DNA of 48,658 nt from Thermodesulfobacteriota bacterium (GCA_028282925.1 JANQGV010000213.1:1-48658); one strand, 5' to 3'; shown: positions 28,515 through 48,658, counted from the first letter of the stretch. Program-made: numbers and translations. The notes: a model not told the origin generated them from the sequence alone.

Positions 28515-28553
28515 CCTCTTTTAACAAACAATGTCTTCCCCGCTGATCGATAA

Positions 28554-30383: not shown

Positions 30384-30433
30384 AGTATAAAGTGGTTATC
30401 CATTGAGTTCAGGTAATTACTAATTACCTTATA

Positions 30434-32206: not shown

Positions 32207-32272
32207 GCTGAAAAAGCGCAATGATTTGTTTTGATGCCCGATAGGGACGCCACTTCCTGAAGAGAGGGACTC

Positions 32273-33865
32273 ATGTTGTTTTCGGATGTGCAAAAACAGG
32301 AAAAAGGCTATGCCTGGCTGTTTCTTTTGGTCCTTGCGGCTGTGTGCAGTGATTTTGTTGTAATGGTTCTGTTTTCCGATATCAGAACTCTTTTGATAAC
32401 CATACCCGATGATGCATCGTATTATTTCAAAATTGCCGATACCATTGTTCATAATGCTTTTGTCTCCTTCGACGGGATTCATGAAACAAACGGGTTCCAA
32501 CCGTTGTGGCTGTGCATGCTGCTGCCGGTGGCGGCCGTTTTTAAAGGGTCGCCGGAAGCAATGATGCAGGCGACTGCGTTGCTTCAGGTGGTGCTTCTTG
32601 CTGTTTCGGCGCTGATGCTGTTTTCGCTCCTTTCAAAAACTCATTCGGTAAGGTCAGGTTTTTTTTGCAGTCTCCTGTTTTTTGCAGCCGTTTTTTTTCC
32701 GGGAGTCAACGGCATGGAGTCGGCATTGCTGATATGTATGTGTGTCGTTTTGTTGTATTACGGCCGGCGAAGCGACATCATCGCCCGGTCTACCCCACGG
32801 GGCGAATTTTTTTTCGGGATACTGTTGGGGCTTGTTATGCTGACCCGCCTTGACATGGTTTTTCTCGGGGGGGTTATTGCCGCCGTTCTTGCATTCGACG
32901 TGTGTTTATCCCGCAGGCCCAAAAGAGAAACGATACGGAGGTTTGTGACTGTTGTGGGCAGTGCATCGCTTATCGTAGCGCCGTATCTATTGCTTAATTA
33001 CCTGTTCTTCGGCCATGCTGTTCCCATCAGCGGCATTCTCAAAAGCTGTTTCCCCCACCCGATGGTTAATCGCAACATCCTGGAGCTCTTTACCCCGCGA
33101 TACACTGTTTGTATACTGATCGCCTGCTGCTACCTGGGCTGGTTGTTGCTGTCAGGCGGTAAACGGCGGGAGCGGTCCAGCGATGTGCAGTATTTCGGCA
33201 TCGCAACCGCTGTATGCGCAACTTCGGTAGTACTGCATGCGCTGTATACATTTTTGTTCATGAAATGGGCGGTTTTTGCCTGGCACTTCATTTTGTACCC
33301 TTTTTGTGTGGTGCTGATAATCGGCGATGTGTTTTACCGCCTGGGTCAGCCCCGGCCGAAAGGCGTTCTGAAGATATGCTGCTGGATTATTGCGGGGCTG
33401 ATAGTGTGCGCGGCATGCGTGAAGGTGTATCGCCGTCATACGCGCCCCCTTGAGAACAGCTGGCATGTGGCTTCATATAATGCCGCCTGCTGGGCCCGTG
33501 AAAACACTCAGCCCGACAGTGTTTTTGCGATGAAAGATGCGGGACATTTCAGCTTTTTCAGTCGGCGAAAGGTCATTAACCTGGACGGCATTGTGAATAA
33601 TCTGCAGTATCAGGATGTGCTCAAAGAAAAAAACCTTAAAAAGTATTTTGCCGATAATAACGTTATGTACCTTGTTCAGCATGCTTTCTGGAATAACGAA
33701 AGCATAGCTACGGCACAATATGATGTTATTTCAATTTCTTACTGGAGTCATCTCTATTCGGTCGAGAGCGTCAAGATACCCCTTTACAAACAGAATGAAG
33801 CATACCGCTCTCCCGTGTATTATGACGGCCCCTATGCCTCTGTTTTCGTCATCTGGAAACTGTAA
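32273..33865 (+). CDS. Polytopic GT-C-like membrane protein
   Basis: A 530-residue membrane protein with about ten hydrophobic segments. The first periplasmic loop carries PDDASYYFKIADTI and DGIHETNGFQPLW, typical of PMT_2/ArnT-like hypothetical glycosyltransferases that use a lipid-linked sugar. A soluble domain ends the protein. GAGAGGGA gives a good ribosome binding site before ATG 32273. It probably shares a transcript with the TPR protein upstream. It is the last gene of the glycan region; the next gene starts a TRAP operon after a 276-bp gap with its own promoter. Confidence 0.72.
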   Translation: MLFSDVQKQEKGYAWLFLLVLAAVCSDFVVMVLFSDIRTLLITIPDDASYYFKIADTIVHNAFVSFDGIHETNGFQPLWLCMLLPVAAVFKGSPEAMMQATALLQVVLLAVSALMLFSLLSKTHSVRSGFFCSLLFFAAVFFPGVNGMESALLICMCVVLLYYGRRSDIIARSTPRGEFFFGILLGLVMLTRLDMVFLGGVIAAVLAFDVCLSRRPKRETIRRFVTVVGSASLIVAPYLLLNYLFFGHAVPISGILKSCFPHPMVNRNILELFTPRYTVCILIACCYLGWLLLSGGKRRERSSDVQYFGIATAVCATSVVLHALYTFLFMKWAVFAWHFILYPFCVVLIIGDVFYRLGQPRPKGVLKICCWIIAGLIVCAACVKVYRRHTRPLENSWHVASYNAACWARENTQPDSVFAMKDAGHFSFFSRRKVINLDGIVNNLQYQDVLKEKNLKKYFADNNVMYLVQHAFWNNESIATAQYDVISISYWSHLYSVESVKIPLYKQNEAYRSPVYYDGPYASVFVIWKL

Positions 33866-34141: not shown

Positions 34142-35161
34142 ATGAATAAAAAAATCGGACTATCCATTGCGATCATCATAGCCGCGTTGATTGTACCCGT
34201 ATGCTTTCATTCTGCCGTACATGCCGGACCCATCAAGCTCAGCTATGCCAACTTTCCGCCGGCCCCGACCTTTCCGTGCGTACAGATGGAAAGATGGAAG
34301 ACCGAGGTCGAAAAGCGCACCAATGGTAAAGTCGTTATCAACACCTTTCCCGGCGGGACGCTTCTGGGCGCCAAGAATATGATGGACGGGGTTATTATGG
34401 GGCAGGCCGATATCGGTTGCCTCTGCATGGCCTATCAACCCGGCCGGTTTTCCGTTACCAACGCAACCAGCCTGCCGCTGGGCCTGCCCAACGCCGAGGT
34501 TTCCAGCCAGGTGCTGTGGGAACTGTATAAGGCATACAAGCCCAAGGCCTTTGATAAAGTCAAAGTGCTGACCATGTTTACCACCGCGCCGTCCAATATC
34601 ATGTCTAAAAAGCCGGTTCGCAGCCTCCAGGACTTGAAAGGCCTTAATTTGAGAGCCTCCGGCGGGGCCGCCCAGATTCTAAAGGCCTGGGGTGCCAACC
34701 AGGTGGGCATGCCCATGTCGGCCACTCCGGAAGCCCTGCAAAAGGGCGTCGTTGAGGGTTTATTTTCTTCTTTGGAAGTTTTGAAAGACTTCAAGTTTGC
34801 TGAAATGTGTCGCTATGTAACCATGACCGACACGGTTATCTACCCCTTTGCCGTTGTGATGAACAAAAGCGCCTGGAATGCGCTTCCCGATGGCGTTAAA
34901 AAGGTTATGGGCGATCTGGCCGCCGAGCAGTGTAAATGGACCGGAACCTACATGGACAACCATGTGAATGAGTCGCTCGCATGGTCGAAAAAGAACCATA
35001 ACCTGGAAGTAATTCAACTGCCGGAAAGCGATCAAACGGTAATGAAGCAGCAGCTTGCTCCCCTTGTGACCGACTGGAAAACAAAGGCCAAGGAAAAGGG
35101 CCTCCCGGCGGATGCAATTGTAAACGATATCAAAAAGTTCAAAAAGCAGTTCGGCGGATAA
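34142..35161 (+). CDS. dctP: TRAP transporter substrate-binding protein (DctP family)
   Basis: A 339-residue periplasmic solute receptor that delivers a substrate, usually a carboxylate, to the membrane subunits. The first 28 residues are a Sec signal peptide ending in VHA. The mature protein has the DctP fold (PF03480): KLSYANFPPAPTFPCVQMERW, FPGGTLLGAKNMMDGVIMGQADIG, and SLQDLKGLNLRASGG, where the Arg of LNLRASGG aligns with the carboxylate-binding Arg of the family. AAAGGGAGG and AAGAGG provide an unusually strong ribosome binding site. A terminator-like hairpin follows at 35219-35245, which would make this subunit far more abundant than the permeases. Confidence 0.93.
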   Translation: MNKKIGLSIAIIIAALIVPVCFHSAVHAGPIKLSYANFPPAPTFPCVQMERWKTEVEKRTNGKVVINTFPGGTLLGAKNMMDGVIMGQADIGCLCMAYQPGRFSVTNATSLPLGLPNAEVSSQVLWELYKAYKPKAFDKVKVLTMFTTAPSNIMSKKPVRSLQDLKGLNLRASGGAAQILKAWGANQVGMPMSATPEALQKGVVEGLFSSLEVLKDFKFAEMCRYVTMTDTVIYPFAVVMNKSAWNALPDGVKKVMGDLAAEQCKWTGTYMDNHVNESLAWSKKNHNLEVIQLPESDQTVMKQQLAPLVTDWKTKAKEKGLPADAIVNDIKKFKKQFGG

Positions 35162-35218
35162 GTACGTTTACGCTGTCGTCAGTTTTAAAAAAACAATTCG
35201 CCGCAGTATGCTTTATAT

Positions 35219-35250
35219 GCTCCCCGTTTTTTTATTGCGGGGAGCTTTGT
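35219..35250 (+). terminator. Intrinsic-terminator-like hairpin between dctP and dctQ
   Basis: GCTCCCCG (35219-35226) and CGGGGAGC (35238-35245) form a perfect 8-bp stem around an 11-nt loop, followed by TTTGTT. Its position inside the operon suggests partial termination that lowers the permease transcript. Confidence 0.65.
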
Positions 35251-35277
35251 TAATCTTGCAGCAGAAAAATACAGGTT

Positions 35278-35769
35278 ATGGAGTTCCTGGACCGGGTTAC
35301 CAAATGTATCAATAGAGTGATGGTGCTGATAGCCGGCATCGTCCTGGTGGGGATGATTCTGCTGACCTGTGCCAATATTGTGATGAGAATTGTGCATGTT
35401 CCCATCCGCGGTACGTTTGAACTCATGGGCATGTTCGGAGCCATTGTAACCGCATTTTCTCTCGGGTATACCCTGCATAAAAAAGGACATATTTCCGTAG
35501 ATATCCTGTTCCATTTCTTTCCGGCCCCGGTTCGAGCCGTGCTGGGCGCATTTAATGATCTCGTTTGCCTGGTTTTCTTTTCGATTGCCTCACGGCAGAT
35601 CTGGAAATGGGCAACCACTCTTCGTGATGCCGGTGAGTTGACCGAAACCCTGCAGATCATCTACTACCCGTTTACCTATGGAGTTGCAATCGGATGCGGG
35701 GTGCTTGCTTTTGTCTGTTTGACCGATTGTATTCGCTCGGTCGCTTCCCTGAAACGAGGTGCCCGGTGA
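35278..35769 (+). CDS. dctQ: TRAP transporter small permease (DctQ family)
   Basis: A 163-residue inner-membrane protein with four hydrophobic segments. It contains RGTFELMGMFGAIVTAFSLGYTL and a basic loop before KKGHISVDILFHF, the DctQ pattern (PF04290). It forms the membrane complex with DctM and receives substrate from DctP. There is a 116-bp gap after dctP with the hairpin described there. Its stop codon overlaps the GTG of dctM (GTGA), so the two are translationally coupled. Confidence 0.9.
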   Translation: MEFLDRVTKCINRVMVLIAGIVLVGMILLTCANIVMRIVHVPIRGTFELMGMFGAIVTAFSLGYTLHKKGHISVDILFHFFPAPVRAVLGAFNDLVCLVFFSIASRQIWKWATTLRDAGELTETLQIIYYPFTYGVAIGCGVLAFVCLTDCIRSVASLKRGAR

Positions 35770-37070
35770 GTCTGGCACTGATCGGTATTATCGGTATTGT
35801 GGCTTTGCTGGCGGTTCTGTTTTTCCTGGGGATGCCGGTGGGCTTTGCCATGGCTGTAGTGGGCTTCTGCGGGTTTTGCAGCGTGGTATCATTTAAGGCC
35901 GGGCTGGGAATGATCAGTACGGATCTGTGGACCTCATTCTCTTCCTACGGCCTGACGGTTATCCCGCTCTTTATTTTTATGGGGCAGATTGCGTTTCATT
36001 CCGGAGTGAATGAAAAGCTGTACGACTGTGCCTACAAATGGATCGGCCATATCCGCGGCGGTATTGCCATGGCAACGGTTGCCGCCTGTACTGCGTTTTC
36101 GGCTATCTGCGGCTCCAATGCGGCAACTGCGGCAACCATGACCTCTGTAGCATTGCCCCAAATGAAAAAGTTCAAATATGAACCCAAGTTGAGCACAGGC
36201 GCCATTGCCTGCGGCTCAACCCTGGGGGTCGTTATCCCGCCCAGCGTGGTTTTGATAGTCATCGGTCTCTCGTCCGGGCAGTCCATTGCAAAGCTGTTTT
36301 ACGGTGGCATCGGGGCCGGTATTGTGCTGGCAACGCTGTTGATGCTTACGGTGTATGGTGTATGCCTGGTGCGGCCCCACTGGGGTCCAGTCGGCCCTAA
36401 AATCAGTCTCCGAGAAAAGGTCCGTGCACTTCCGGGCGCGCTTGATATGCTGCTGATTTTCCTGCTGGTAATGCTGGGGCTCTATTTCGGATTTTTTACC
36501 CCCATAGAGGCGGGTGCGGCGGGTGCGTTTTTTGCTGTTATCATCAGCCTTGTGCAGCGGGGGCTTACCCTGCGGGGCTTTTTCGCAGCAGTTGAGGATA
36601 CGCTCAAGATATCCTGTATGGTTATTATGATCGTGGCTGGGGCCACCATCTTTGGGCGGTTTCTGGCAGTCACCCGTATTCCCTATGATATCGCCACCTG
36701 GGTATCAGGTCTCCCTGTTCCGGGTGTTGTGGTGATGCTTATTATTTTTCTGATCTATGTTCTGGGCGGTATGGTCATGGATGCCCTGGCCCTGCTGCTC
36801 ATCACCATCCCCATCTTTTTTCCGGTTGCAAAAGAGCTGGGATACGACCCGCTGTGGTTTTCCGTAGTGATTACCGTTATTACCACCCTCGGGGCGGTAA
36901 CGCCGCCCGTGGGCGCTACGACCTACGTGGTGGGGGGGATGGCCCGCGATATTCCCATGGGAAGTGTGTTCAAGGGAGTTGCCTATTTTCTTCCGGCCTA
37001 CATTATTTGCATTCTTATCCTTTTGCTGTTTCCTGAAATTATCATATTTTTCCCCAAGCTGATAAATTAG
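35766..37070 (+). CDS. dctM: TRAP transporter large permease (DctM family)
   Basis: A 434-residue inner-membrane protein with about twelve hydrophobic segments (PF06808), the ion-driven transport channel of the TRAP system. Diagnostic pieces are FFLGMPVGFAMAVVGFCGF, ICGSNAATAATMTSVALPQM, GVVIPPSVVLIVIG and VTPPVGATTYVVGG. The GTG at 35766 overlapping the dctQ stop is the most likely start; an upstream in-frame ATG would extend it 24 residues into dctQ without family similarity. It ends 195 bp before the convergent FadH-like gene; a palindromic repeat lies in that gap. Confidence 0.92.
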   Translation: MSLALIGIIGIVALLAVLFFLGMPVGFAMAVVGFCGFCSVVSFKAGLGMISTDLWTSFSSYGLTVIPLFIFMGQIAFHSGVNEKLYDCAYKWIGHIRGGIAMATVAACTAFSAICGSNAATAATMTSVALPQMKKFKYEPKLSTGAIACGSTLGVVIPPSVVLIVIGLSSGQSIAKLFYGGIGAGIVLATLLMLTVYGVCLVRPHWGPVGPKISLREKVRALPGALDMLLIFLLVMLGLYFGFFTPIEAGAAGAFFAVIISLVQRGLTLRGFFAAVEDTLKISCMVIMIVAGATIFGRFLAVTRIPYDIATWVSGLPVPGVVVMLIIFLIYVLGGMVMDALALLLITIPIFFPVAKELGYDPLWFSVVITVITTLGAVTPPVGATTYVVGGMARDIPMGSVFKGVAYFLPAYIICILILLLFPEIIIFFPKLIN

Positions 37071-37265: not shown

Positions 37266-39209
37266 CTATGTCTCAATTTTCCGCACAGCGTTAAAGCCAC
37301 CCCAGACGGCATCCATAATACTGCCCGGCTCTGTGCAATCGCCGATGCTGATAACGTTGCTTTTATCCCGCAGCTCTTCACTCAGGGTGTTTTCGGAAAA
37401 CATTCGTCCGGCAAAAACAAGACTGTCTGCTTCAATGCGTATTTCAGTGCCCTGCTGTTCGGCTACAATGCCGTTGTTGTCAAACGTTACAGGAATCGTA
37501 CCGCGATACACAGTAATGTTGGGGTGTTTAATCATCTGTAGAAGCAACGACCGGTTGTGTAAATCCAGCATATTCGTATCCAGTTCTTCGGCGTCAAGGC
37601 GCGCGCACAGGCTTATGTGCTTACCCTGGCCGGCCAGATAGACTGCGGTTTCACAGCCGATTACTCCGGCGCCCATCATCAGTATTTGTTCTCCCTGTGG
37701 CTCAGCACCGCCGAGAACCTGGAGTACGGTCAAAACCCTGCCGTTGTTTAATGGCGGGGGCTCCATGTCTGCACCGGTTGCCAGAACGACATAGTCGGCT
37801 CCGAAATCGACAATGTCTTCAACGGTTGCTTTTTTATTAAGTACACTATTTACAGGCAGCTGGCTTATGCAATTGTTGAGGTATTTGATATAATCGGCAA
37901 TATCATGTTTGAAATCCGGCTTTGCCGCCAGGTTAAGGTTGCCTCCCAGAGTGCCGGTTGCCTCCCAGAGGGTGACATCGAATCCGCGTTGCGCCCCGAC
38001 GCGAGCGGCCTCGATACCACCAGGGCCGCCGCCTATAACCAGCAGGCTGCGTTTTTCTCGCAAAGGAGCCAGCTGCCATTCGGTTTCATGTCCGCAGAGA
38101 GGGTTGAGGGCGCAGCTTGTGGGCTCGCCGGCAATCATCTGCCACAGGCAGCCTTCGTGACAGCCTATGCACGGCATTATCTCAGCGATTTTTCCATTCT
38201 TAACCTTGTTGACCCATTCCGGCTCGGACAGCAAACCCCTGCCGATGGCGATGAAATCGGCTTTGTCCTCAGTCAGTGCTTTTTCCGCGACCTCCGGGTA
38301 GTGCAAACGGCCCACGGCAAAAACAGGAAGGGCGCAGCTTTTTTTGACTTTTGCTGCCAGTTCCACTAGACAGCCCGGCGGCTGATACTGGGGCGGGTGG
38401 GGCCACCAGCCGGTCTCGTAGCAGCCGGCGTCAATATGCAGGGCGTTGACACCCATCTTCTCAAGCTCTCCGGCAATCCAGAGCCCTTCCTCCTCCTGGC
38501 GCCCGCCTTCAAGATAGTGGGCTATGCCGTAGCGATAAATAATGGGGAAGTCCGGTCCGGCTTCCTTCCTGATCGCTTCAATTGCCTCCCGGGCAAAGGT
38601 GAGCCGGTTTTCACGCGATCCGCCGTAGCGGTCATCCCGGCGGTTCCAAAGCTCGGTCATGAACTGGTCCATCAGGTATCCTTCATGACCGTGCAGTTCA
38701 ACACAGTCGGCGCCGGCTTCACGGCAGCGCCGGGCCGCATAGCCGAATGAACGGGCAAGCTCCGCGGTTTCTTCCGTAGTCAGGGCCCTGGAATTAAAGT
38801 CAGGATAGTCGGGTACATAAAAATTTGGATTTTCCGAAGCGGAAACAGGCGGTACGTTTTCATCGATCACCGGGGCCGGAACAACCCGCCCGAAACCGGC
38901 GGTCAATTGTACGCTCAGCTTACACCCGTAAGCGTGGAGCCTGTCGGCAAGACTGCGCATCGAAGAAAGATGCTTGTCTAAAGAAAAATTAAACAGGTGC
39001 TCGGCCACGGGCTCAAGAGCATGGGAAACAAAGGTCATTTCGGTTGTTATCAAACCCACGCCGCCTTTGGCCCGGGCTTCGTAATAGGCCTGAAACCGCT
39101 CGCCCCAGTCGCCGTCGGAATCGCACAGACCGCGCACACCCATTGCGGCCATAACGATCCGGTTTTTTGTCTCCATTGTGCCGATACGGCCGGGTTCCAG
39201 TATTTTCAT
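37266..39209 (-). CDS. FadH/BaiCD-like FMN/FAD/4Fe-4S oxidoreductase
   Basis: A 647-residue member of the Old Yellow Enzyme/2,4-dienoyl-CoA reductase group. Residues 1-340 form the FMN TIM barrel (PF00724) with ELHGHEGYLMDQF and DRYGGSRENR. Cys347, Cys350, Cys354 and Cys366 (CIGCHEGC then SC) bind a 4Fe-4S cluster. Two Rossmann domains follow (LLVIGGGPGGIEAARVG and ILMMGAGVIGCE) for FAD and NAD(P)H. Such enzymes reduce conjugated C=C bonds of dienoyl-CoAs, steroids (BaiCD/BaiH) or other enones. ATG 39209, seven bases after AAGGAGG, is preferred to TTG 39233. It is the last gene of the leftward operon, 30 bp after the hydrolase gene. Confidence 0.9.
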   Translation of the reverse strand: MKILEPGRIGTMETKNRIVMAAMGVRGLCDSDGDWGERFQAYYEARAKGGVGLITTEMTFVSHALEPVAEHLFNFSLDKHLSSMRSLADRLHAYGCKLSVQLTAGFGRVVPAPVIDENVPPVSASENPNFYVPDYPDFNSRALTTEETAELARSFGYAARRCREAGADCVELHGHEGYLMDQFMTELWNRRDDRYGGSRENRLTFAREAIEAIRKEAGPDFPIIYRYGIAHYLEGGRQEEEGLWIAGELEKMGVNALHIDAGCYETGWWPHPPQYQPPGCLVELAAKVKKSCALPVFAVGRLHYPEVAEKALTEDKADFIAIGRGLLSEPEWVNKVKNGKIAEIMPCIGCHEGCLWQMIAGEPTSCALNPLCGHETEWQLAPLREKRSLLVIGGGPGGIEAARVGAQRGFDVTLWEATGTLGGNLNLAAKPDFKHDIADYIKYLNNCISQLPVNSVLNKKATVEDIVDFGADYVVLATGADMEPPPLNNGRVLTVLQVLGGAEPQGEQILMMGAGVIGCETAVYLAGQGKHISLCARLDAEELDTNMLDLHNRSLLLQMIKHPNITVYRGTIPVTFDNNGIVAEQQGTEIRIEADSLVFAGRMFSENTLSEELRDKSNVISIGDCTEPGSIMDAVWGGFNAVRKIET

Positions 39210-39239
39210 CGATATGCCTCCTTGCTTATTCAATATGTT

Positions 39240-40004
39240 CTACAGCTGTTCCAGAAAGTTCAGGGTAGCCTCAATTATCTGTTCCTGCTGTTTTTCCCTG
39301 GTAATGTCCGCCAGATTGTCATGGGGTTGCACAGGGTCGGGAGAGGTGTCATAGTAGCCGAACTGGGTGTGGTTGCCCCCCTCGATTTTTATCAGCTCTG
39401 TTCCCGGAGGCAGGTGCTGCAGGCTGTCCTCTATGTACTCAGGATACCCGTCGTTTGTGCCATAAATTGATACGGCTTCCAGAGGTTTTTTGTCCAGGCG
39501 GAAAAGGGCCGAGGGCCAGGTGGCCCATAGTATCACCCCGTCTATCTTCCAGGTATACATTTTGGCAAACAGGCAGGCAAATGCACCGCCCATGGAGTGG
39601 CCGCCGATTGCCCACGTTTCAATTTCATCATAATAGCGCAATATGGAATTTGCCCGGCGCCAGCCCAGATGGGCAAGATCAAACGGCATGCTCACAATAA
39701 CAACGAGGTATCCTTCTGCTGCCAAAGCGCGGGCCGACGGGGCATAGGAGCGGGCATCGACTTTGCCGCCCGGGTACATAATAAATCCTTTGGAAGGTTG
39801 CGATTGCTTTGGTTCAAGAACGTAATAATCCGGGTTTTCCGTAGCGTACCACAGGGACTTGCGGGTTACGATAACCTCATCATCTGATTCCATGGCTTCA
39901 AGCGCTTCCGGCAGCGGGGGAAAGCTTTCATCCTCTGCGGCGCTACACGGCAGGGTTATTATCAGCCAAAGCAGTAAAAAAATGAAAATGAATTTTGGGC
40001 GCAT
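39240..40004 (-). CDS. Secreted alpha/beta hydrolase
   Basis: A 254-residue hydrolase with an N-terminal signal peptide (hydrophobic stretch 5-18, then LPCSAAED). The fold shows GFIMYPGGKVDARSYAP (oxyanion strand), nucleophile Ser137 in GGHSMGGAFA, Asp185 in YGTNDGYPE and His212 in EGGNHTQFGYY. The last is typical of the Abhydrolase_5 group (PF12695). The PC before the cleavage region is not a standard lipobox. It should hydrolyse an ester or thioester in the periplasm. A strong AAGGAG precedes ATG 40004, 17 bp after the flavoprotein gene. The substrate is unknown. Confidence 0.85.
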   Translation of the reverse strand: MRPKFIFIFLLLWLIITLPCSAAEDESFPPLPEALEAMESDDEVIVTRKSLWYATENPDYYVLEPKQSQPSKGFIMYPGGKVDARSYAPSARALAAEGYLVVIVSMPFDLAHLGWRRANSILRYYDEIETWAIGGHSMGGAFACLFAKMYTWKIDGVILWATWPSALFRLDKKPLEAVSIYGTNDGYPEYIEDSLQHLPPGTELIKIEGGNHTQFGYYDTSPDPVQPHDNLADITREKQQEQIIEATLNFLEQL

Positions 40005-40021
40005 GCTTTTTCTCCTTTTCG

Positions 40022-40876
40022 TTATCCTCCGGAACGCTTGTTGCGGATTTTATCCATGAATTCAGGGGTGATGACCGTAAGCCCCTCTTTTTTGGCTTCC
40101 TTGACAATACCGGAAATAACCTTTTTTAAGAATATGCTTGGCACTTTAAGAATTTTGGAACAGGCCTCGTCTTCCCAGGTAACTTCCGGGTCGAACCGCG
40201 TGCAGGCATACTTCACCATCTCAAAAGAATTGCTCTTTTCTTGCGGGATAGGAACCTTATATGGCGAGGAATGCTTTGTAAACCAGAAACGCACATTGTC
40301 CCGGAACCCGTAGTCGATGGGTATCCGAGGAAAGCCTTTGCCTTTCAGCAAACACTGATACCATTTTGGTTTCATGATGATTTTATTGATACGCAGAAGG
40401 AAGTGATATTCAATAAGCTCTTTATTGTCCTGCAATGGATGGCTTTCATCCCATGTGCATTCAAAAATCTGTACCGCCTCTTTGACTATTTCGGGGTGGC
40501 GGACGTCGTCACCGTTCGAGCGGGTCGAAGGAAGCAGGGTAAAAATACTGTTTTTCATTTTTTCTTCGGTGCTCTCGCCCGGATAGCCCAGGGCAACACA
40601 GTTTTTCATGTACTTTTTTTTGTCGGGAATGAAATTAATGGCACATGTCTTTGAGCGAATGATATTCTGGGCGGTATTGCTTGTGCCTCGGGCAATGAGC
40701 ATCATAGCGTAATCGCGGCCGCCGGTTACTACGTGAGGAAAACACAATGAATACGGGCCCAGATTGGTCTGCCCAGACTCGGTCAGGGTGCTCACCAGCA
40801 CCACCGGCATGGGGAAAAAGCTGGATGTCTGGTAGAAATTGTCCAGCATGCGGACATCGGTAAATTCATTCGTCAT
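40022..40876 (-). CDS. Flavin-reductase-like protein with C-terminal PCP_red-like domain
   Basis: A 284-residue protein. Residues 1-190 resemble the flavin reductase-like FMN-binding split barrel (PF01613): SSFFPMPVVLVSTLTESGQTN and ARGTSNTAQNI. The last 57 residues (228-284) contain VTWEDEACSKILKVPSIFLK and, after a helix, KEAKKEGLTVITPEFMDKI. This corresponds by eye to the PCP_red domain (PF08369) found at the C-terminus of dark protochlorophyllide reductase subunit B and in some unrelated iron-sulfur proteins. ATG 40876 is preceded by GGAAAGGA; an upstream reading to 40927 is less likely. It may reduce a flavin or a substrate directly; no signal peptide is seen. Confidence 0.65.
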   Translation of the reverse strand: MTNEFTDVRMLDNFYQTSSFFPMPVVLVSTLTESGQTNLGPYSLCFPHVVTGGRDYAMMLIARGTSNTAQNIIRSKTCAINFIPDKKKYMKNCVALGYPGESTEEKMKNSIFTLLPSTRSNGDDVRHPEIVKEAVQIFECTWDESHPLQDNKELIEYHFLLRINKIIMKPKWYQCLLKGKGFPRIPIDYGFRDNVRFWFTKHSSPYKVPIPQEKSNSFEMVKYACTRFDPEVTWEDEACSKILKVPSIFLKKVISGIVKEAKKEGLTVITPEFMDKIRNKRSGG

Positions 40877-40931
40877 GTTTTTTCCTTTCCATGAGTGCAT
40901 ATGGTCAAGGTTGTGCAGCCTGCACAAAACC

Positions 40932-42209
40932 TTAATAGGTTTTTTGTAAGTGGCGCACGGTGAAAATGCTCGGCTTCACGGCATGGCTCACAACCGGGGT
41001 ATAGATTTTTTGCGAGCTGCTGAAGCCTGAATGGATCCGCTGAAAGTCGACATAGGTCGAGCCGACAATGGTCATTTTCTCCTGGCCGGTTTCCGTTTTC
41101 AGTACATCGGTATGCTGCAGAAAGCATTTCCAGAAACGCCCGAGCTGGTCATATATTTCGGTCCATAGAATGATGTATGACTCGGGATCGAGATACCAGA
41201 TGCGTTTTGAATAGAGGTAATTAGGGTCTTTGCTGACAACCTCGACCACCAGGGTGTTGCACCGCTCATAGGTAATACCGTTTACAATCCCCTGCCCGAG
41301 CTGCCGCGTGACTTTGCTCAGGTCCTGGTGGCGTGAGCTGAGCAGTTCTTTGCGGCCGTTAAATGTGTAGTCGTTCCTGAGAATCTCGCCTTCCCAGAAA
41401 TATTCATCATCATAGATCAGGTCGGTGCCGTCGATGGAGTCCGTTTTCTGGGAGGTCGACATGCGCCTGATCCTTCTGAACTGTGAATACCACAGATACA
41501 TGTCGTCTTCTTTTTCATGGTCGATAAAACGCATGGTATACATGCGCATGTTCAAAAATTCACTGGGCAGATAGGTGTGCATAAAGTATCCACGGTGAAA
41601 GCCTTTTTTGTTGCCCGGAAAAGCCGGTTTGGGCTCGAGTTCGGTGCGGTGAATAAAATAGAATTCGGTATACTCCTGGTCGGCCAGGCGTTCGGTTCTG
41701 GACTTGGGGTTTATGTTTGGAGACCATTTACGGTACTTGCACGTATCACCGTGATTGTTGAATTCAAAGTTCCAGGCCATTTCAAGTCCGGTTTTAGGGT
41801 CGGGGTACGGCTGTCCGGCAATCTCGGCGTAGTTTTCAATGGTACCGTCCGGATTGGTCTTGACCAGGGGGGCATATTTTTTTGTGGCAGCAACCATACC
41901 ATTGGTGGGAGTGTACTGTGTATATGGAGCAATATAAAAAAAGTACCCTTCCGGCGGACCGCCCCATTTATCGGGGTTTTTGTAGATTTCGACATAGGAC
42001 TTCGGCATAAATTCGGCAACCTGATCGATGGTGGCAGCATCAACCTTCTGGCCGGACCACGTTTTTTCCCATTCCCTGACCCGGGATAGTTCTTCCGGGG
42101 TGTAGGCCGGTTTTATGGTGATTTCATTTGCCCATGTATGCCATGCAGGGGCAACAAGGATTATTGCGGCACACAGGAACATAATTGTTTGTTTGCGTAT
42201 GTGTATCAT
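40932..42209 (-). CDS. DUF1329 family exported protein
   Basis: A 425-residue protein with a signal peptide ending at WANE (about residue 28). It carries the DUF1329 layout (PF07044): TIDQVAEFMPKSYVEIYKNP early, NNHGDTCKYRKW in the middle, and YERCNTLVVEVVSKDPNYLY and RIWYLDPESYIILWTEIYD in the last part. DUF1329 has a LolA-like half-barrel suggestive of lipid or hydrophobic ligand handling and is usually encoded beside DUF1302 outer membrane proteins, as here (29-bp gap). Ribosome binding site GGAAGG is well placed. The precise function is unknown. Confidence 0.85.
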   Translation of the reverse strand: MIHIRKQTIMFLCAAIILVAPAWHTWANEITIKPAYTPEELSRVREWEKTWSGQKVDAATIDQVAEFMPKSYVEIYKNPDKWGGPPEGYFFYIAPYTQYTPTNGMVAATKKYAPLVKTNPDGTIENYAEIAGQPYPDPKTGLEMAWNFEFNNHGDTCKYRKWSPNINPKSRTERLADQEYTEFYFIHRTELEPKPAFPGNKKGFHRGYFMHTYLPSEFLNMRMYTMRFIDHEKEDDMYLWYSQFRRIRRMSTSQKTDSIDGTDLIYDDEYFWEGEILRNDYTFNGRKELLSSRHQDLSKVTRQLGQGIVNGITYERCNTLVVEVVSKDPNYLYSKRIWYLDPESYIILWTEIYDQLGRFWKCFLQHTDVLKTETGQEKMTIVGSTYVDFQRIHSGFSSSQKIYTPVVSHAVKPSIFTVRHLQKTY

Positions 42210-42238
42210 TGTTTTACCTTCCTATAGTTCAGTGTGGA

Positions 42239-43852
42239 TCAAAATTGATATTCAAGGCGAAAAATTAAACTGTCCCGCCGGTCCCAGGAGTTTCCATTGG
42301 GGTTATTGCGTTTGGCACCGTACAGCTTGAGGCCGACCGTAGCACGAAAGTTATGATAGGGCCGTGGGAAATAATATGTTACCGGCAGAACGCAGTACCA
42401 GCGCTTGGTACGGAACAGCCATTGAAAGACCGGCACAACTGCAATATTTGTATTAAACAACTCGGCCTTGGCCCACAAAGCAATACCATCGGTAACGGAA
42501 TCACCCGGCAGGTGATTCCGGTTGGAGGCGATAATGTCGTGGTCGTGGTTGAATATTTTTTCCCAGAAGTAGGTTATGGAAAAATCAATATTCTTGTTGG
42601 TCTGTAAAAGGTTTTCAAGAACAGCAGGTAATTTGAATCGGTCGTTATATTTAATTGCCAGGCCCAGCACATCCCGCCGCACTTCATCATAGAGGGCTCG
42701 GTCGTTGCTGTCGGTCCCCTTGTTAAAGGGGCTGCCGATTTCGTAAAACCATTCAAAGTCCCAGGTTGAAAGGTGCAGCCAGGGAACATAGGTTTGGGCG
42801 GTCCCGCCGATGGTCTGGTAGCGCTTGAATTTGAATACGCGGTAATCGGGCCAGTCGCCGGGGTTCAGATGGCTGCCGGTCATGGCGGCCCGGATGCCGG
42901 CACTCACATACTGCATGGCAAAGGTGTCCATATTGCCGTCGTGAACGCTTGCAATGCCCCAGTCCAGGCGATGGTTCCAGTACAGAAGTGTCCAGTCAAT
43001 GCCCCAGGTATAGCCGTGAAGACGGAAGCCCCATTCATAGTTTTCACTCAGGTTCCAGGTCGGGGCATCCCGGTAGTTTTTTTCATACAGCCAGGGCCAA
43101 AAGCCCATTTCCTTATCGCGGGTAAACGATGTTCTGCCTTTGAATGCTTTTGGCCCCCAGTGTGTTCCCTGGTAGGCCAGATACTGCGACCTGAAATAGC
43201 CGGGGTTGAAGATGAACTCAAACACCAGTTGGCCGGGAAGATCGGATGTGTAGAATCCCCGGATCATCCAGAGTCCCTTTTTCACCTCTTCCCAGGTGTC
43301 AAGTCCGGGCACTCCCCAGCGCAGATCAAGGGGATTGACCACATCGGCAACCCGGTTGGTATCGAGCTGCCCCCAGATAACAATCTGCTTGCCGATCCGA
43401 AACTGCCAGGGCCCCTTCTCGATATCAAGATATGCCTCGGTCAGGATGTCTTTGTCGAAGCTGCGGGGGTGTTTGTAGTCTTTGCGGTCGCGATGGTTAA
43501 TGTGCCGGTTCTGGTTGTCGTCGATAATCCCGGACTTTTCCCACCACCACTTGAAACCGGAATAAAACTGTATGTTGTGGTCAAGGCCCTCGCTGATGGT
43601 GTACATGCCTTCGATAAAGAAGGAGGTCATCAGGAAATCAACGCGGGTATCAAGGTTGGAGCCGATATGGGATTTTTTTTCCGAGCGGTCCCAGGGCTGA
43701 ATCTGATAGTAGCAAGTTTCCTTGAGAAACCCGCTTACCTTCAGCCGGCCGTCCAGCAGCGGCACCATGGCACGAGCCGTAGAAAATGATCCCGCAGCCA
43801 TGAAAACGGCGATGCTTAAAAGAAAAACACTGTAAAGGGAGTTTTTTTTCAT
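42239..43852 (-). CDS. DUF1302-type outer membrane beta-barrel protein
   Basis: A 537-residue exported protein with a signal peptide (cleavage near ARA-MV at residue 28). It is rich in alternating aromatic strands (LYWNHRLDWGI, FEWFYEIGSPF, PYHNFRATVGLKLYG) and ends in EYQF, the C-terminal aromatic signal for barrel assembly. The IGKQIVIWGQLDTNRVADVVNPLDL segment is the DUF1302 (PF06980) hallmark. Proteins of this family are linked to uptake or export of hydrophobic compounds in hydrocarbon, steroid and aromatic degraders. It forms a module with the DUF1329 protein. The high-GC antisense frames over it are shadows. Confidence 0.85.
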   Translation of the reverse strand: MKKNSLYSVFLLSIAVFMAAGSFSTARAMVPLLDGRLKVSGFLKETCYYQIQPWDRSEKKSHIGSNLDTRVDFLMTSFFIEGMYTISEGLDHNIQFYSGFKWWWEKSGIIDDNQNRHINHRDRKDYKHPRSFDKDILTEAYLDIEKGPWQFRIGKQIVIWGQLDTNRVADVVNPLDLRWGVPGLDTWEEVKKGLWMIRGFYTSDLPGQLVFEFIFNPGYFRSQYLAYQGTHWGPKAFKGRTSFTRDKEMGFWPWLYEKNYRDAPTWNLSENYEWGFRLHGYTWGIDWTLLYWNHRLDWGIASVHDGNMDTFAMQYVSAGIRAAMTGSHLNPGDWPDYRVFKFKRYQTIGGTAQTYVPWLHLSTWDFEWFYEIGSPFNKGTDSNDRALYDEVRRDVLGLAIKYNDRFKLPAVLENLLQTNKNIDFSITYFWEKIFNHDHDIIASNRNHLPGDSVTDGIALWAKAELFNTNIAVVPVFQWLFRTKRWYCVLPVTYYFPRPYHNFRATVGLKLYGAKRNNPNGNSWDRRDSLIFRLEYQF

Positions 43853-43864
43853 AGGTGCCCCGTT

Positions 43865-44587
43865 TTAGAATAAGGCTTTCAATGTGAGTTCCGTCATATC
43901 ATGGCCCACGGCATTTTCCAGCATCAGGCCGCCGGGGTCGTTCTCTTTCAAAGTTAAACGGATGGCTTCTTTGCGAGTGATGAGCTGCCGCATGTAGTCC
44001 GGATCGCAGGAGTTTCTTGTTTTCCAAAGCCGGTGATATATATCCAGATAATCGACCATGAGCCCTAAAATCTGATCCTGTGAATCTTTAGTGCTGGGGG
44101 CCACCTCGGTCGAAATGCAATAGGGTGAAATTAAAGCACGGAACCAGTCGGGATTACGGATAGAGCCGTCGGAAAAAGATTTTTTTCCTTCATTGTAAGC
44201 ATCTTCCAGGGGCTGCAGATGTTTTTCCATGTACGGCAGGTCGCAGATGCAATCGGCCGTCGGATAAAAATCGATAATAAAATAGCTGCCCTTTTCGCTT
44301 TCAGCCCAAAAGGAGGAATAAATAGGCAGCGAATGCTGGTCGTCCGGCCAGATAAGGGTGGTGTAGGTCATAAGCTTATCGCGATAGCTCTGTATCCCGA
44401 AAACAATTTTTTCAAGTCCGGGAGCTTCATACAGATATTTAAAGCTGCTGGAGAGCCCCCCGCCTTTCAAGTTCCACAACGGGGTGATATCTTCGCCCTT
44501 GTAGACCTCCATTTTAGTTGCGTTGAATTTATTCAGGATTGCCATTATTCTTTCTTCGTAGGGTGGAAATGTGTATGTTTCCGGCAT
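43865..44587 (-). CDS. Ferredoxin-dependent bilin reductase-like protein
   Basis: A 240-residue soluble protein. I recognise by eye the bilin reductase (FDBR, PF05996) pattern. Residues 80-90 read WPDDQHSLPIY and residues 104-109 IIDFYP, matching the P-x-LPIF...(I)xDLxP region. The C-terminal end has DPGGLML (217-223) with ELTLKALF, matching the DPARGML...E....LF ending. FDBRs reduce biliverdin, and red chlorophyll catabolite reductase belongs to the same superfamily. The catalytic acid after LPIF (Asp105 of PcyA) corresponds to Phe93 in my alignment, so the reaction may differ. A strong AAAGGAG precedes ATG 44587. If this match is wrong, the protein is an unknown. Confidence 0.6.
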   Translation of the reverse strand: MPETYTFPPYEERIMAILNKFNATKMEVYKGEDITPLWNLKGGGLSSSFKYLYEAPGLEKIVFGIQSYRDKLMTYTTLIWPDDQHSLPIYSSFWAESEKGSYFIIDFYPTADCICDLPYMEKHLQPLEDAYNEGKKSFSDGSIRNPDWFRALISPYCISTEVAPSTKDSQDQILGLMVDYLDIYHRLWKTRNSCDPDYMRQLITRKEAIRLTLKENDPGGLMLENAVGHDMTELTLKALF

Positions 44588-44630
44588 GAGCTGCTCCTTT
44601 CTCTTTGCCTGTAATACTGCCAGAGACTGC

Positions 44631-45320
44631 TTACAGTTTTATAACAAATTGTTCACGGCCTTCTCGCAGGGCCGCGGCATTAACCACTTCCAGTGTTCTG
44701 TTCTGCATTGCGGGGTTGTCGAGGGCATCGACACATACCGCTGCTATTTGCTCTCTTTTAACCAGACCGGTAATTTTACCGCCTTCGCCGAAAGCAACCT
44801 CATCCGGCAGCTCTTTCTGGGTATAACCGCCGGGTCGTATGATGGTATAGCAGATACCGTTCGACCTGATAGCATCCTCAGACCTGGTCTTGACCTTCAG
44901 CACGGGTCCCATGGCAAACCGGTATATGCAGGAAACGGCATTTTTGCTGTCGCCTGCCCCGATTGAAGAAACGACAACCGCCTGACGCAGTCCTTTGTTC
45001 TTGGCGGCCTTGACCAGGTTCTGATTCCCCATGTTGTCGATTTTATTGTTTTCTTTTTTACTGAACGGTTTTTTTGAACCGATTGCGCTTATCAGAAAGT
45101 CAGCGCCTTCCATGACCTTTTCAAGCGAAGCCACTGAAGTAAGGTCACCCTCAACGCAGGTAATGCCTTCTTCCATAAGGCCGGGAGGCTCAGGCGGGTC
45201 AAAGGGCCGCACCAGCAAGGCGCGTACCAGGTAGCCGCTGTTCAATAATTCCTTCACGATACATCTGCCGAGTCTGCCGGTTGCCCCGGCAACAACAACA
45301 GTCTGCTTTTCTTCAGCCAT
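44631..45320 (-). CDS. Atypical short-chain dehydrogenase (NAD(P)-binding, SDR)
   Basis: A 229-residue Rossmann-fold protein of the NAD_binding_10/NmrA type (PF13460). The dinucleotide-binding motif VVVAGATGRLGRCIVKEL (about residues 8-25) is intact. VSSIGAG and the later IIRPGGYT replace the standard YxxxK active site of classic SDRs. Plant and bacterial relatives include Tic62-like and divinyl-reductase-like proteins, as well as many oxidoreductases of unknown role. AAGGAG lies at correct distance before ATG 45320. It is within the compact operon, 18 bp after the lipoprotein gene and 43 bp before the FDBR-like gene. The substrate is unknown. Confidence 0.85.
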   Translation of the reverse strand: MAEEKQTVVVAGATGRLGRCIVKELLNSGYLVRALLVRPFDPPEPPGLMEEGITCVEGDLTSVASLEKVMEGADFLISAIGSKKPFSKKENNKIDNMGNQNLVKAAKNKGLRQAVVVSSIGAGDSKNAVSCIYRFAMGPVLKVKTRSEDAIRSNGICYTIIRPGGYTQKELPDEVAFGEGGKITGLVKREQIAAVCVDALDNPAMQNRTLEVVNAAALREGREQFVIKL

Positions 45321-45338
45321 TATTCATTCTCCTTTTTG

Positions 45339-47981
45339 CTATGTGCCCGGGTCCGACATGACTTCAACATGTGAGTCAAGGTAGCGGCCGGTGTTGTAAA
45401 TGTAGTTCCACGCTTGGGCGTCGTCCAGGGCATGGGCCCTGAGGAACAGGGCGCTCCAGCGTGCGGCCGTTTCAATGGACTGTTGCTGGTTGAGCGTGGG
45501 GTCGTTTTCATCCGGGGTCGGCCCGGAAGGGTTGTTTATGTTACACAGTGAGTAGTGGTTGGCGCCTTTTATCGTAATTGCCGCTTTTGGTGTGTCCTTT
45601 ATTCCCTGGTATGTTTTTTTGGTCTCCTCAGCTGTGGCGTTGCTGTCCAGCTCGCCGTTTATAATCGCCACGGGTAATCCCTTGTTTTGTGTCGGCGCCC
45701 AGCCCTGGAATGGGGTTTTGATACCACTGAGGGCAACAGCCTTCAGCTCTGAGGGACGGGTAAAAGATTCCCCTTTTGGACAGAATGGGTACATGCATGT
45801 GTCCTGTATTGCCATAATGACATTGGCGGAGCCGAATGAGTGACCCAGCATGACCAGCCGTGACGTATCGACCATGCCGGTAACAGGGCTTGTGGAATCG
45901 GCATTTTCATCGGCCATAAAATCAAGCACATCATAGAGCTGCTGCTGCTCGGCAAAAAGGCCCTCCATGGCAACCCCGGAAAATTCATAGGACCGATAGT
46001 GATTGGGCACAACGACAATAAAACCATAGCGTGCTATTATTTTTGAGTACTCAGAATAGAGCGATTTGTCACAGTAGGCACCCTGCAGCAGAAGCGCCAC
46101 CGGAAATGTCCGGGATGTTCCGTTATCAGGCCCCTGCCGGGTTGGATAGTACACATCAACCTTGTCCCCGTTTTGCGGCATTACAGTTTCATATGACGAT
46201 GCGTTGTCAAATTGGGGCGAAGGGGGCTGAGGGCGGGAAATCCGGCGGTAAATCGTGCCTCCTTCCGGAGGGTCCAGGCCTTCGGGGCCGTCGGCGCTGG
46301 CTTTGTCGACGCCGACATACAACGTATTGTTGAACTGCGCAAAGGAGCTGATGCTTACGACGCGATTGTCGCCAAAACCGCTCAAAGTGACCGGTTGCCA
46401 GGTAGTGCCGTCGGCGGTGCGCCACAACTGCGCGCCGGTTAAATACTGTTCGCCCATGCCCAGTTTGGGGGCGTAGTTGGAAATAAGGCCGGCATACAGT
46501 TCATTATCAAACGTGAAGAGATTGGCGGCAATGTTCTGATACATAACCAAAAGCCATTTTCCAACATTTTGTTTGCCGTCAAAACCGTTGGGCACGTCGG
46601 AATCGCCGCCTGCGCTGTAAAACCAACTGCCGTCATCCGGGCTTCCGGTAGGTGTATACAGAACCCGGGCCCCGGCAAGGGTCTGGATGCCGACATACAA
46701 ATTTCCATTGAAATCGGCCATGCTCCAGGGCATGAAATTCCCGTTCCACATGTTGCAGTCCATGCCGCAGCCGAAGCCGTTTTCATTGGTCCCTTCATCA
46801 TTGTCATCAACATTAACGTCAACAATCAGCTCCCAGCCCTCATCGGTCAGCCGGGCCATTCTTGAGCATTTGCCCATGTTGCCGGTTGCCCCGGTGCCGC
46901 CGGCATACAGGGCCGGCTCGCCCGATACCGATGATACGCACAGTGAGGGTATACTGGTGCTCACGGGACGCTGCCCATTCAGATAATCTTCGTCGGAGTG
47001 ATAATTGCCGAAACTGTTGGGCGGCTCTGTCACGCTCCAGGTGTCGCCGTCTGCGGTATGCCAGACCTGGGCTCCGTAATCATAGTTGAGGGCCGTGTTG
47101 ACGAATAGCTTATCCTCAAATATGACCATCGAAGGTATCATTTTGTTCCAGTACGTACCGAAACCGTTCTCGTCCGTGCCGGTACCGATCTCGTAGGTGT
47201 CGCCTGCTGATACTGCGCCGCGATCATATTCAATAAAGGGCGGATAGGGATTGCTGAAAGTACGTTCCCCACAAAAGGTATATTCCTGCCCCAGGTTGCC
47301 GGCTTGTTCATTCTGCTGGATTACAAGGGTATCTTCCGTGTTGCCGACAATATCAAAACGTCTGAATTTCCCGTCGCCGGAGGTTATCTGCAGCACCCCG
47401 CCGGCCCAGGCATCAGTCTGCCAGCTTTTGCTGCTGTCGGTGATGCTGGCGGTTACGTCGCCATCATCATCGTCACAGCCAGATATAAGGGTAATTGTTC
47501 CCGACTCCTCGGTATCCTTTTTATCCGAGATAACCGGCTCCCATGCGGTACCGTCAAAGCGCCAGATTTCGCACCCTGTAGAGTCAAAGACCTTGCCCTG
47601 GTGTCCCGAGGAAAACCCGCAGTAGAGCTTATTCTGAAAAACAATCATGGCGCCCCACATGCAGCTGATCCAGGGGTTGCCGTAAACCCCGTTTTCTACA
47701 CCATTGGGGAAAAGGACCTGCTCCCAGGAGCCGCTTTCGGTTGTGCGCCAGATCTCGGTGCCCTCTATTTCGTTTCGGGTCATGGCATACAGCCGGTCCT
47801 GGTATTCCGCCATGGCCACGATGCCATAGTTGTTGGTGCTGCCGAAACCAGGCTCTGTTGCCGCCTCCCAGGTGGAGCCGTCTTCAGTGGGCTGCTGCTT
47901 GGTTGTCTCGCATCCGGTCAGTAATATCAAACAGCAGAATGCAATCCCGACTTTAAACGCTCTATTTATACTCGTTTTCAT
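45339..47981 (-). CDS. Lipoprotein: beta-propeller-like repeats fused to chlorophyllase/PETase-type hydrolase
   Basis: An 880-residue exported lipoprotein. The lipobox LLTGC puts the lipidated Cys at residue 24; Glu25 suggests outer-membrane localisation. Residues about 40-590 hold six or so repeats of the type F-x-x-x-LY-x-G...GA-x-IWRT-x-DG-x-W, as in YCF48/BNR-like beta-propellers. From about residue 610 a hydrolase follows: FPVALLLQGAYC, SEYSKIIARYGFIVVVPNHY (the strand pattern of chlorophyllase and PETase-like families, PF07224/PF12740), nucleophile Ser715 in GHSFGS, Asp779 in NGELDSN and His809 in GANHYSL. It starts at ATG 47981 with GGAGGGGAG upstream and overlaps the preceding gene by 4 bp. 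It should hydrolyse an ester at the cell surface or in the periplasm. Confidence 0.8.
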   Translation of the reverse strand: MKTSINRAFKVGIAFCCLILLTGCETTKQQPTEDGSTWEAATEPGFGSTNNYGIVAMAEYQDRLYAMTRNEIEGTEIWRTTESGSWEQVLFPNGVENGVYGNPWISCMWGAMIVFQNKLYCGFSSGHQGKVFDSTGCEIWRFDGTAWEPVISDKKDTEESGTITLISGCDDDDGDVTASITDSSKSWQTDAWAGGVLQITSGDGKFRRFDIVGNTEDTLVIQQNEQAGNLGQEYTFCGERTFSNPYPPFIEYDRGAVSAGDTYEIGTGTDENGFGTYWNKMIPSMVIFEDKLFVNTALNYDYGAQVWHTADGDTWSVTEPPNSFGNYHSDEDYLNGQRPVSTSIPSLCVSSVSGEPALYAGGTGATGNMGKCSRMARLTDEGWELIVDVNVDDNDEGTNENGFGCGMDCNMWNGNFMPWSMADFNGNLYVGIQTLAGARVLYTPTGSPDDGSWFYSAGGDSDVPNGFDGKQNVGKWLLVMYQNIAANLFTFDNELYAGLISNYAPKLGMGEQYLTGAQLWRTADGTTWQPVTLSGFGDNRVVSISSFAQFNNTLYVGVDKASADGPEGLDPPEGGTIYRRISRPQPPSPQFDNASSYETVMPQNGDKVDVYYPTRQGPDNGTSRTFPVALLLQGAYCDKSLYSEYSKIIARYGFIVVVPNHYRSYEFSGVAMEGLFAEQQQLYDVLDFMADENADSTSPVTGMVDTSRLVMLGHSFGSANVIMAIQDTCMYPFCPKGESFTRPSELKAVALSGIKTPFQGWAPTQNKGLPVAIINGELDSNATAEETKKTYQGIKDTPKAAITIKGANHYSLCNINNPSGPTPDENDPTLNQQQSIETAARWSALFLRAHALDDAQAWNYIYNTGRYLDSHVEVMSDPGT

Positions 47982-48658
47982 TCCGTACTCCCCTCCATCG
48001 TGATGGTAATTGTTATGTCAGCCGATTCCTCCTTGAGGGCTGCGCTCGCTTGTGCTTTTATTGTTCCCTTTGGCATATCGTTTTCCCAGGTTATCGAAAG
48101 CGCAGCTGAGGTGACCGAAATGCTTTTAACGTCATAGGCGTTTTCCGCCAGAACGGCAAAGATGAAGCAGCCCAGGTCGTCTTTATCGGTCTCGCCGCTT
48201 AAGGTGCTGTCAGAAACGGTGCCGGTTATGCGAATACCTGCTTTTTGCAGGGTGTAGTTGCCGTTGTGGGTAAACAGGGTATCGCCGAAAGGTAATGACA
48301 GGGAGATGTTTTCGCCGTTTATCTGTATCGTTCCGTTTACGCTTTCAGGAGGGGCCGCCTGTGTCAACTCCCTGAACCGGTCATCCAGCAGATGGGTACC
48401 GGCGGTCCGCAGGAAGTGGTAGGAGGCCGGATTGTACTCTTTCTGTTCGGTAATTGTTTCTCCCACGATAATCTGAGTATTTTCAACGGTAATGCTGCTG
48501 CGGTTGTAGGCATCCTTGATATATATTTCCTCATTATGCCGGTCGACAACATCTACAGCACTGTCGCGCAGCAGCTTCCAAACATCCCAGGTTTGCCAGA
48601 ACCACTCCATCGGGAAAATGAAAATATAATCAAATCCGTCCTCTACCCAGTTTGCAAG
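47978..48658 (-). CDS. Unknown beta-rich protein, N-terminus outside window (partial)
   Basis: The frame stays open to the right edge, so the start is missing; at least 226 residues are visible. The N-terminal visible part has WVEDGFDYIFIFPMEWFWQTW, then an acidic, Thr/Ser-rich, beta-strand-like region (SISVTSAALSITWEND, ADITITITMEGSTE). I see no family signature or catalytic motif. Its stop codon overlaps the ATG of the hydrolase lipoprotein in an ATGA, so the two are translationally coupled and probably functionally linked. An exported binding or structural protein is possible, but this cannot be decided without the N-terminus. Confidence 0.6.
   Translation of the reverse strand, partial: LANWVEDGFDYIFIFPMEWFWQTWDVWKLLRDSAVDVVDRHNEEIYIKDAYNRSSITVENTQIIVGETITEQKEYNPASYHFLRTAGTHLLDDRFRELTQAAPPESVNGTIQINGENISLSLPFGDTLFTHNGNYTLQKAGIRITGTVSDSTLSGETDKDDLGCFIFAVLAENAYDVKSISVTSAALSITWENDMPKGTIKAQASAALKEESADITITITMEGSTE

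Follow-up and report, generated by a model that had tools for sequence, protein, structure and literature searches.

A nine-gene operon around a bilin-reductase-superfamily protein in a Thermodesulfobacteriota bacterium: a possible module of an oxygen-independent tetrapyrrole-reducing system

This analysis concerns the operon at the end of a 48,658-nucleotide stretch of DNA (hereafter the window; GCA_028282925.1 JANQGV010000213.1:1-48658) from a Thermodesulfobacteriota bacterium, which encodes a member of the ferredoxin-dependent bilin reductase (FDBR) superfamily and which, judging from its sequence and its relatives, we somewhat favour as one module of a system that extends across the class and serves to reduce tetrapyrroles without oxygen. 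Between 37266 and 48658, nine consecutive open reading frames (ORFs) follow one another on the minus strand with intergenic gaps of 6, 17, 4, 29, 12, 43, 18 and -4 nucleotides (Table 1). They are transcribed in the order 226-residue ORF, 880-residue lipoprotein, short-chain dehydrogenase/reductase (SDR), FDBR-like protein, DUF1302, DUF1329, flavin-reductase-like protein, exported hydrolase and Old Yellow Enzyme (OYE), and the 5' part of the operon is absent because the contig stops at 48658, which is also the end of the window.

Table 1. Genes of the operon and the convergent transporter, in window coordinates (aa, amino acids; AF2, AlphaFold2)
Feature	Position	Strand	Evidence and remarks
226-aa ORF, first visible operon gene	47978..48658	-	Open at contig end; DUF4251 18 bits (cut-off 27)
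880-aa predicted lipoprotein (LLTGC) with C-terminal PETase/chlorophyllase-family alpha/beta hydrolase	45339..47981	-	Nucleophile elbow GHSFG at 713
229-aa atypical SDR, NAD_binding_10/NmrA-like	44631..45320	-	NAD_binding_10 130 bits (cut-off 27.2)
240-aa FDBR-superfamily protein	43865..44587	-	PF05996 40.8 bits (cut-off 31), profile search, AF2 and Foldseek
DUF1302 outer-membrane protein, AmeA-like	42239..43852	-	27.8 bits (cut-off 23.2)
DUF1329 periplasmic protein, AmeB-like	40932..42209	-	126.1 bits (cut-off 23.1)
301-aa flavin-reductase-like protein, weak C-terminal PCP_red-like segment 251-294	40022..40927	-	Pfam below cut-offs
254-aa exported alpha/beta hydrolase	39240..40004	-	Signal peptide, GHSMG at 135; Abhydrolase_5 136 bits (cut-off 27)
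655-aa OYE with 4Fe-4S motif and FAD/NAD domain	37266..39233	-	CxxCxxxCx11C at 355; OYE and Pyr_redox_2; FadH/BaiCD/BilR-like
TRAP transporter DctP/DctQ/DctM, convergent with the operon	34142-37070	+	Confirmed

By profile and predicted fold, the FDBR-like protein is a genuine member of the superfamily that joins FDBRs and red-chlorophyll-catabolite reductase (RCCR), in agreement with the bilin-reductase likeness noticed in a preliminary description of the same DNA. PF05996 is its sole Pfam match, PF06405 (RCC_reductase) being unmatched in the same scan. When a profile built from 16 paralogs of the window's own genome was searched against the PDB, it retrieved GtPEBB (2e-28), HY2 (2e-25), PebA (4e-19), PcyA (5e-16), PebS (3e-8) and RCCR (2e-6), and significance was reached for tetrapyrrole reductases only, the next family standing at 0.04. 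The AF2 model, computed with 12 orthologs (pLDDT 82, pTM 0.83), agrees with this: in Foldseek, its top 45 PDB matches were all of the bilin reductase or RCCR family, with TMq values of up to 0.81 (HY2), and HemF coproporphyrinogen oxidase followed at 1.7e-3. Its sequence departs from the catalytic signature of PcyA. With the alignment register set by the invariant Pro88, the position of PcyA Asp105 is taken by Phe93 in the window protein and by Phe or Tyr in its orthologs (57-62% identity), and among the 16 paralogs by Asp or Glu in ten, Asn in three, Phe in two and Arg in one; Asp106, Asp112 and Asp217 are invariant across the 12 orthologs. The protein is neither fused to a ferredoxin nor exported.

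Much of what the preliminary description had named around this gene was borne out, including the tightness of the operon, the DUF1302/DUF1329 envelope pair and the convergent TRAP transporter. Its chlorophyllase/PETase-like exported hydrolase is the 880-residue lipoprotein, whose C-terminal part passes the cut-offs of both PETase PF12740 (35.1 bits, cut-off 28) and Chlorophyllase PF07224 (29.3, cut-off 26), so that the two families are not distinguished for its predicted activity. The FadH/BaiCD-like C=C reductase is likewise present, with BilR-long as its best NCBIfam model (384 bits against a cut-off of 750) and BaiCD close behind (375 against an equivalog cut-off of 825); at residue 181 it carries HGHE where BilR has HGDR, and its assignment as BilR was rejected for lack of the latter motif. 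Two other assignments were weaker. The supposed divinyl-reductase-type protein is an SDR, and no model specific for divinyl (proto)chlorophyllide reductase matched it. The flavoprotein with a PCP_red-like domain remains below the cut-offs of both Flavin_Reduct (26.0 bits, cut-off 27) and PCP_red PF08369 (22.7, cut-off 32.5; E 1e-4), a PCP_red match at E<=1e-3 being seen in two of the five proteins of its family. Relatives of this flavoprotein lie at a second FDBR locus of the same genome (79%; L017) and beside genes resembling dark-operative protochlorophyllide oxidoreductase (DPOR) in another genome (63%; G010, L166).

The FDBR of the window, whose family is so far known for acting on bile- and chlorophyll-type pigments, is one of many. 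Its own genome holds 14 PF05996 matches above cut-off, or 16 with the family's own profile, and 13 of the 17 genomes of the class hold 6-19 copies each, which amounts to at least 150 among the matches listed. In 390 genomes sampled across the phylum, no match was found outside this class, and phage records gave weak matches only, in cyanophages. Clustering at 38% identity yields nine ortholog groups that cover at least three genomes, that of the window covering 11; since these groups are conserved across genomes, the copies are old paralogs rather than recent amplifications. The class is uncultured, the genome records examined being metagenome-assembled genomes, and contamination is an unlikely origin of the trait because the assemblies are independent. 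Their isolate names indicate Zodletone, Lac Pavin, Alinen sediments and a 150 m deep cast, which suggests mostly anoxic source sites and an apparently anaerobic class. Two irregular cases were observed: an FDBR match with four in-frame stops (G005:C171:1700-2368), apparently a pseudogene or an assembly error, and a genome of the same family (G006) with DPOR-like genes and no FDBR, the sole such genome in the family.

At the level of electron supply, a group of FDBRs fused to a 2x[4Fe-4S] ferredoxin occurs at six loci in five genomes, and its member in the window's own genome (L013:2694-3674) scores above cut-off for FDBR as well as for RCC_reductase (PF06405, 27.9 against 24.9). A second group carries an N-terminal membrane anchor and often adjoins an exported flavodoxin (PF12724, 44 bits); identification of the latter as HemG was rejected (26 against 142 bits). 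Fusion and neighbour together make the pattern expected of ferredoxin/flavodoxin-dependent radical reductases. By analogy with the expansion of reductive dehalogenases in dehalorespirers, the paralogs could even be terminal reductases of an anaerobic respiration on tetrapyrroles, a special form of the tetrapyrrole-reducing system that we regard as very unlikely. It would be consistent with the many paralogs, the anchored group beside exported flavodoxin, the exported PNPOx-haem proteins and the linked FAD-oxidase/Fe-S GlcF-like and AOR genes, but no quinol-linked subunit was identified and most FDBRs, that of the window included, lack an export signal.

The gene neighbourhoods of the FDBRs point to both tetrapyrroles and envelope transport. 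Within seven genes of FDBRs, the families encountered repeatedly in three or more genomes include DUF1302, DUF1329, MMPL/RND, YCF48-like, geranylgeranyl-reductase-like, FMN reductase, PNPOx, OYE, AOR, SDR, FAD-oxidase/GlcF-like Fe-S and ferrochelatase-family proteins. One ferrochelatase-family protein at an FDBR locus reaches 40.9 bits (cut-off 27) and that of G007 40.8, and a coproporphyrinogen-oxidase-like (CPO-like) protein at L017, L115 and L129 scores 27.9 bits against a cut-off of 31.8. The flavoprotein-OYE-SDR-FDBR set of the window is repeated in G001 (L082), and the SDR-FDBR pair recurs also in G002, G004 and G008, the two genes adjoining in five genomes (window, L082, L084, L085 and L086). 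The synteny of FDBR-like genes with DUF1302, which the preliminary description had proposed to look for, is found for instance in G007 (L081), with the order hydrolase-MarR-FDBR-DUF1302-DUF1329-YCF48-RND. The nearest sister locus (L016), in the same genome as the window, reads RND-DUF1302-DUF1329-YCF48-fam34-FDBR-PNPOx-OYE. Of 87 DUF1329 genes, 16 have an FDBR no more than 10 kb away, where at most 4.0 would be expected (P about 5e-6). AmeABCD of Castellaniella is a DUF1302/DUF1329/YCF48/RND transporter of hydrophobes that serves monoterpene tolerance (PMC6394551), and relatives of the DUF1302/DUF1329 pair in P. putida are required for Tween 20 metabolism (PMC10866462). The full Ame set (DUF1302, DUF1329, YCF48-like and HAE3 pump) is present at L016, L081, L096 and L103; the window, at its contig end, displays DUF1302 and DUF1329 only. 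Beside FDBRs there is also an exported, chelatase-like lipoprotein family of 597-713 residues (fam34; L016:8475-10268, L132:6684-8504, L134:13113-15254), whose assignment as ferrochelatase was rejected (Pfam 20.4 against 27, no PDB relative by sequence) and for which no fold is proposed because the AF2 model has a pLDDT of 41. Small exported proteins that look cupredoxin-like by eye are conserved near FDBRs (L016:7064-7513, without Pfam match, and L018:9717-10172), and UbiD-family decarboxylases are co-operonic with them at L115:8381-9877 and L090:2004-3602. Wider neighbourhood scans covered the first 25 families each, so that absences from them weigh little; within that range no V4R or bilin-globin partners, known from pre-PcyA, turned up.

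Instead of a tetrapyrrole, the operon could break down some other hydrophobic molecule with conjugated bonds (steroid, terpenoid, carotenoid or aromatic ester), the FDBR fold having been repurposed for C=C reduction, which we consider rather unlikely. The link of Ame-type DUF1302/DUF1329/RND systems to monoterpene tolerance and growth on Tween 20 (PMC6394551, PMC10866462) speaks for such a role, as do an OYE equally near BaiCD and BilR, the UbiD genes close to two FDBRs and the absence of Asp105 in the window group. Every solved relative, however, has the FDBR fold or acts on tetrapyrroles, and the same operons or allied ones repeatedly contain ferrochelatase-, CPO- and DPOR-like genes. Steroid degradation in particular, suggested by the likeness to DUF1302, DUF1329 and BaiCD, was rejected since these neighbours speak against it, and no steroid or terpenoid gene set was seen beside FDBRs among the first 25 families per scan.

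As the preliminary description had remarked, no photosynthesis or tetrapyrrole gene is visible in the operon, but this does not hold for the genome. On contig C65 of the same genome (G000), a DPOR-like, nitrogenase-like operon (L096:8901-13656) carries two NifH-like genes together with genes for a D subunit and for a K subunit that ends in PCP_red (55.5 bits, cut-off 32.5), and is followed by DUF1302-DUF1329-YCF48-RND. The best NCBIfam model of this K subunit is BchB, at 172 bits against 490, and its nearest PDB relative is DPOR BchB (1e-24); the operon is a candidate new nitrogenase-like clade. DPOR-like genes stand directly upstream of SDR and a window-type FDBR in G008, flank a window-type flavoprotein in G010 and, in G014 (C205, L172:6142-18263), form a succession of D subunit/DPOR-like genes, two 325-residue CfbA/ferrochelatase-like proteins, feoB and an FDBR. 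Long K-subunit homologs exist in 11 of the 17 genomes, among them G006; the three genomes of family f3, likewise without FDBR, have none. BchH exceeds its curated cut-off (850 against 829 bits) at L160:6639-12307 (G000, C323), together with a ChlI/D-like ATPase, and in G007 (C72, L163) BchH with ChlI/D-like ATPases lies near a ferrochelatase-family gene, exported flavodoxins, AOR and a FeoB-like gene.

These genes could be taken as biosynthetic. BchH/ChlID, the DPOR-like complex, the geranylgeranyl-reductase-like proteins and the FDBRs would together build, in a non-phototroph, a pigment or cofactor of tetrapyrrole type, either similar to bacteriochlorophyll or new, that the Ame pump would export across the envelope; all these families were found, export is the known function of the Ame system (PMC6394551), and non-phototrophic Binatota carry partial bacteriochlorophyll pathways (PMC8262859). 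We nevertheless deem biosynthesis unlikely. None of the 17 class genomes has BchE above cut-off or the heme oxygenase PF01126, which leaves no fit with canonical anaerobic chlorophyll synthesis or with heme-oxygenase-dependent bilin synthesis; complete bacteriochlorophyll synthesis and pre-PcyA-type bilin synthesis were rejected on the same two grounds, respectively. Exported hydrolases and membrane-anchored FDBRs suit the processing of an external substrate, and known bilin synthesis needs far fewer FDBRs than 6-19 divergent copies.

The reading that we prefer, an oxygen-independent system reducing tetrapyrroles, starts from family memberships, co-operonic order, the ferredoxin fusion and class-wide conservation, all of which are read directly in the sequences. 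Tetrapyrrole-directed chemistry is supported because the FDBR profile and fold agree and because, throughout the class, genes of ferrochelatase, CPO and DPOR type are met repeatedly next to FDBRs or in allied operons, and a tetrapyrrole is the likely target. At the outer membrane, DUF1302/DUF1329 would deal with a hydrophobic conjugated tetrapyrrole derived from pheophytin/chlorophyll or heme; exported hydrolases would cleave its side-chain esters, and chelatase-like proteins encoded at sister loci might exchange or remove the metal. Reduced ferredoxin or flavodoxin would then supply single electrons with which the FDBR paralogs reduce C=C bonds one after another, each acting on its own bond or intermediate, while OYE, SDR and flavoprotein could reduce remaining double bonds or carbonyls. 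The purpose would most likely be the catabolism of an exogenous pigment or the disposal of electrons. The pigment is probably imported and chlorophyll- or heme-derived; import and breakdown deserve slightly more credence than doubt, and chlorophyll itself as the substrate deserves less. That this small lineage of class rank, Desulfobacterota-type and apparently anaerobic, evolved a dedicated, oxygen-independent uptake, demetallation and reductive degradation or respiration of chlorophyll- or heme-derived tetrapyrroles, by means of an expanded set of bilin/RCC-reductase-like proteins, is a possibility that we hold tentatively.

Several points weigh against this interpretation. Phe93 replaces the Asp105 of PcyA, PCP_red of the window flavoprotein is under its cut-off, and the majority of DUF1329 copies lie away from any FDBR, which makes the transporter module a general one. 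The sole characterised Ame-type system exports (PMC6394551), and BchH and the DPOR-like genes are compatible with synthesis. FDBR-DPOR adjacency is limited to two genomes, G008 and G014, and was dropped as a statistical argument on that account. Among ring-opening enzymes, the search covered heme oxygenase alone. Compared with the preliminary description, which had proposed the catabolism of a tetrapyrrole or hydrophobic ester, the tetrapyrrole-directed chemistry and the FDBR identity stand and the genes around them show no tie to steroid degradation, the PCP_red assignment falling short; de-esterification, chlorophyll as a substrate and import over export are what we infer. That earlier view went in the right direction but did not reach far enough, the genome and class context being larger.

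The system resembles FDBR/RCCR chemistry yet, by the sequence comparisons made, is not PcyA, RCCR, pre-PcyA or BilR. Like the FDBR/pre-PcyA proteins (Rockwell, Martin and Lagarias 2023, PMC10151467), the window protein has the PF05996 fold and profile and occurs in an apparently non-photosynthetic bacterium; unlike them, its class combines many copies per genome with a lack of heme oxygenase, its group has Phe or Tyr at Asp105, and it is linked to an Ame-type transporter. Plant RCCR (PF06405) shares the fold, and the ferredoxin-fused paralog passes its Pfam cut-off, but RCCR works downstream of an oxygenase whereas the present class is apparently anaerobic, and the window protein has no PF06405 match. 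Sister loci reproduce the four components of AmeABCD (PMC6394551), here combined with FDBRs, and the window holds the DUF1302/DUF1329 pair alone. The OYE shares the OYE, 4Fe-4S and FAD/NAD architecture of BilR/BaiCD, but is far under both cut-offs and has HGHE. Finally, the C65 complex is nearest to BchB among DPOR (BchLNB)/chlorophyllide reductase proteins, with PCP_red above cut-off, and departs from them in its BchB score, its two NifH-like proteins, the lack of BchE and the DUF1302/DUF1329 linkage.

To our knowledge, the anaerobic degradation of chlorophyll and other tetrapyrroles sinking to anoxic water and sediment is poorly known, and the clusters supply named candidate genes for it; no description of this gene system was found in open-licence papers. 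All known enzymes of the FDBR/RCCR/CPOX fold are ultimately oxygen-dependent, from which a late origin has been inferred (PMC10151467). A class that is apparently anaerobic, carries 6-19 FDBR-like genes and lacks heme oxygenase is a counter-candidate that makes this idea testable. It also offers another reading for the 'gene shrapnel' of bacteriochlorophyll synthesis in Binatota and other non-phototrophs (PMC8262859), some of which could serve tetrapyrrole reduction. Elsewhere in the window, positions 18626-33865 encode mannosyltransferase-like, asparagine-synthase, sulfatase and TPR proteins of no apparent relation to the operon.

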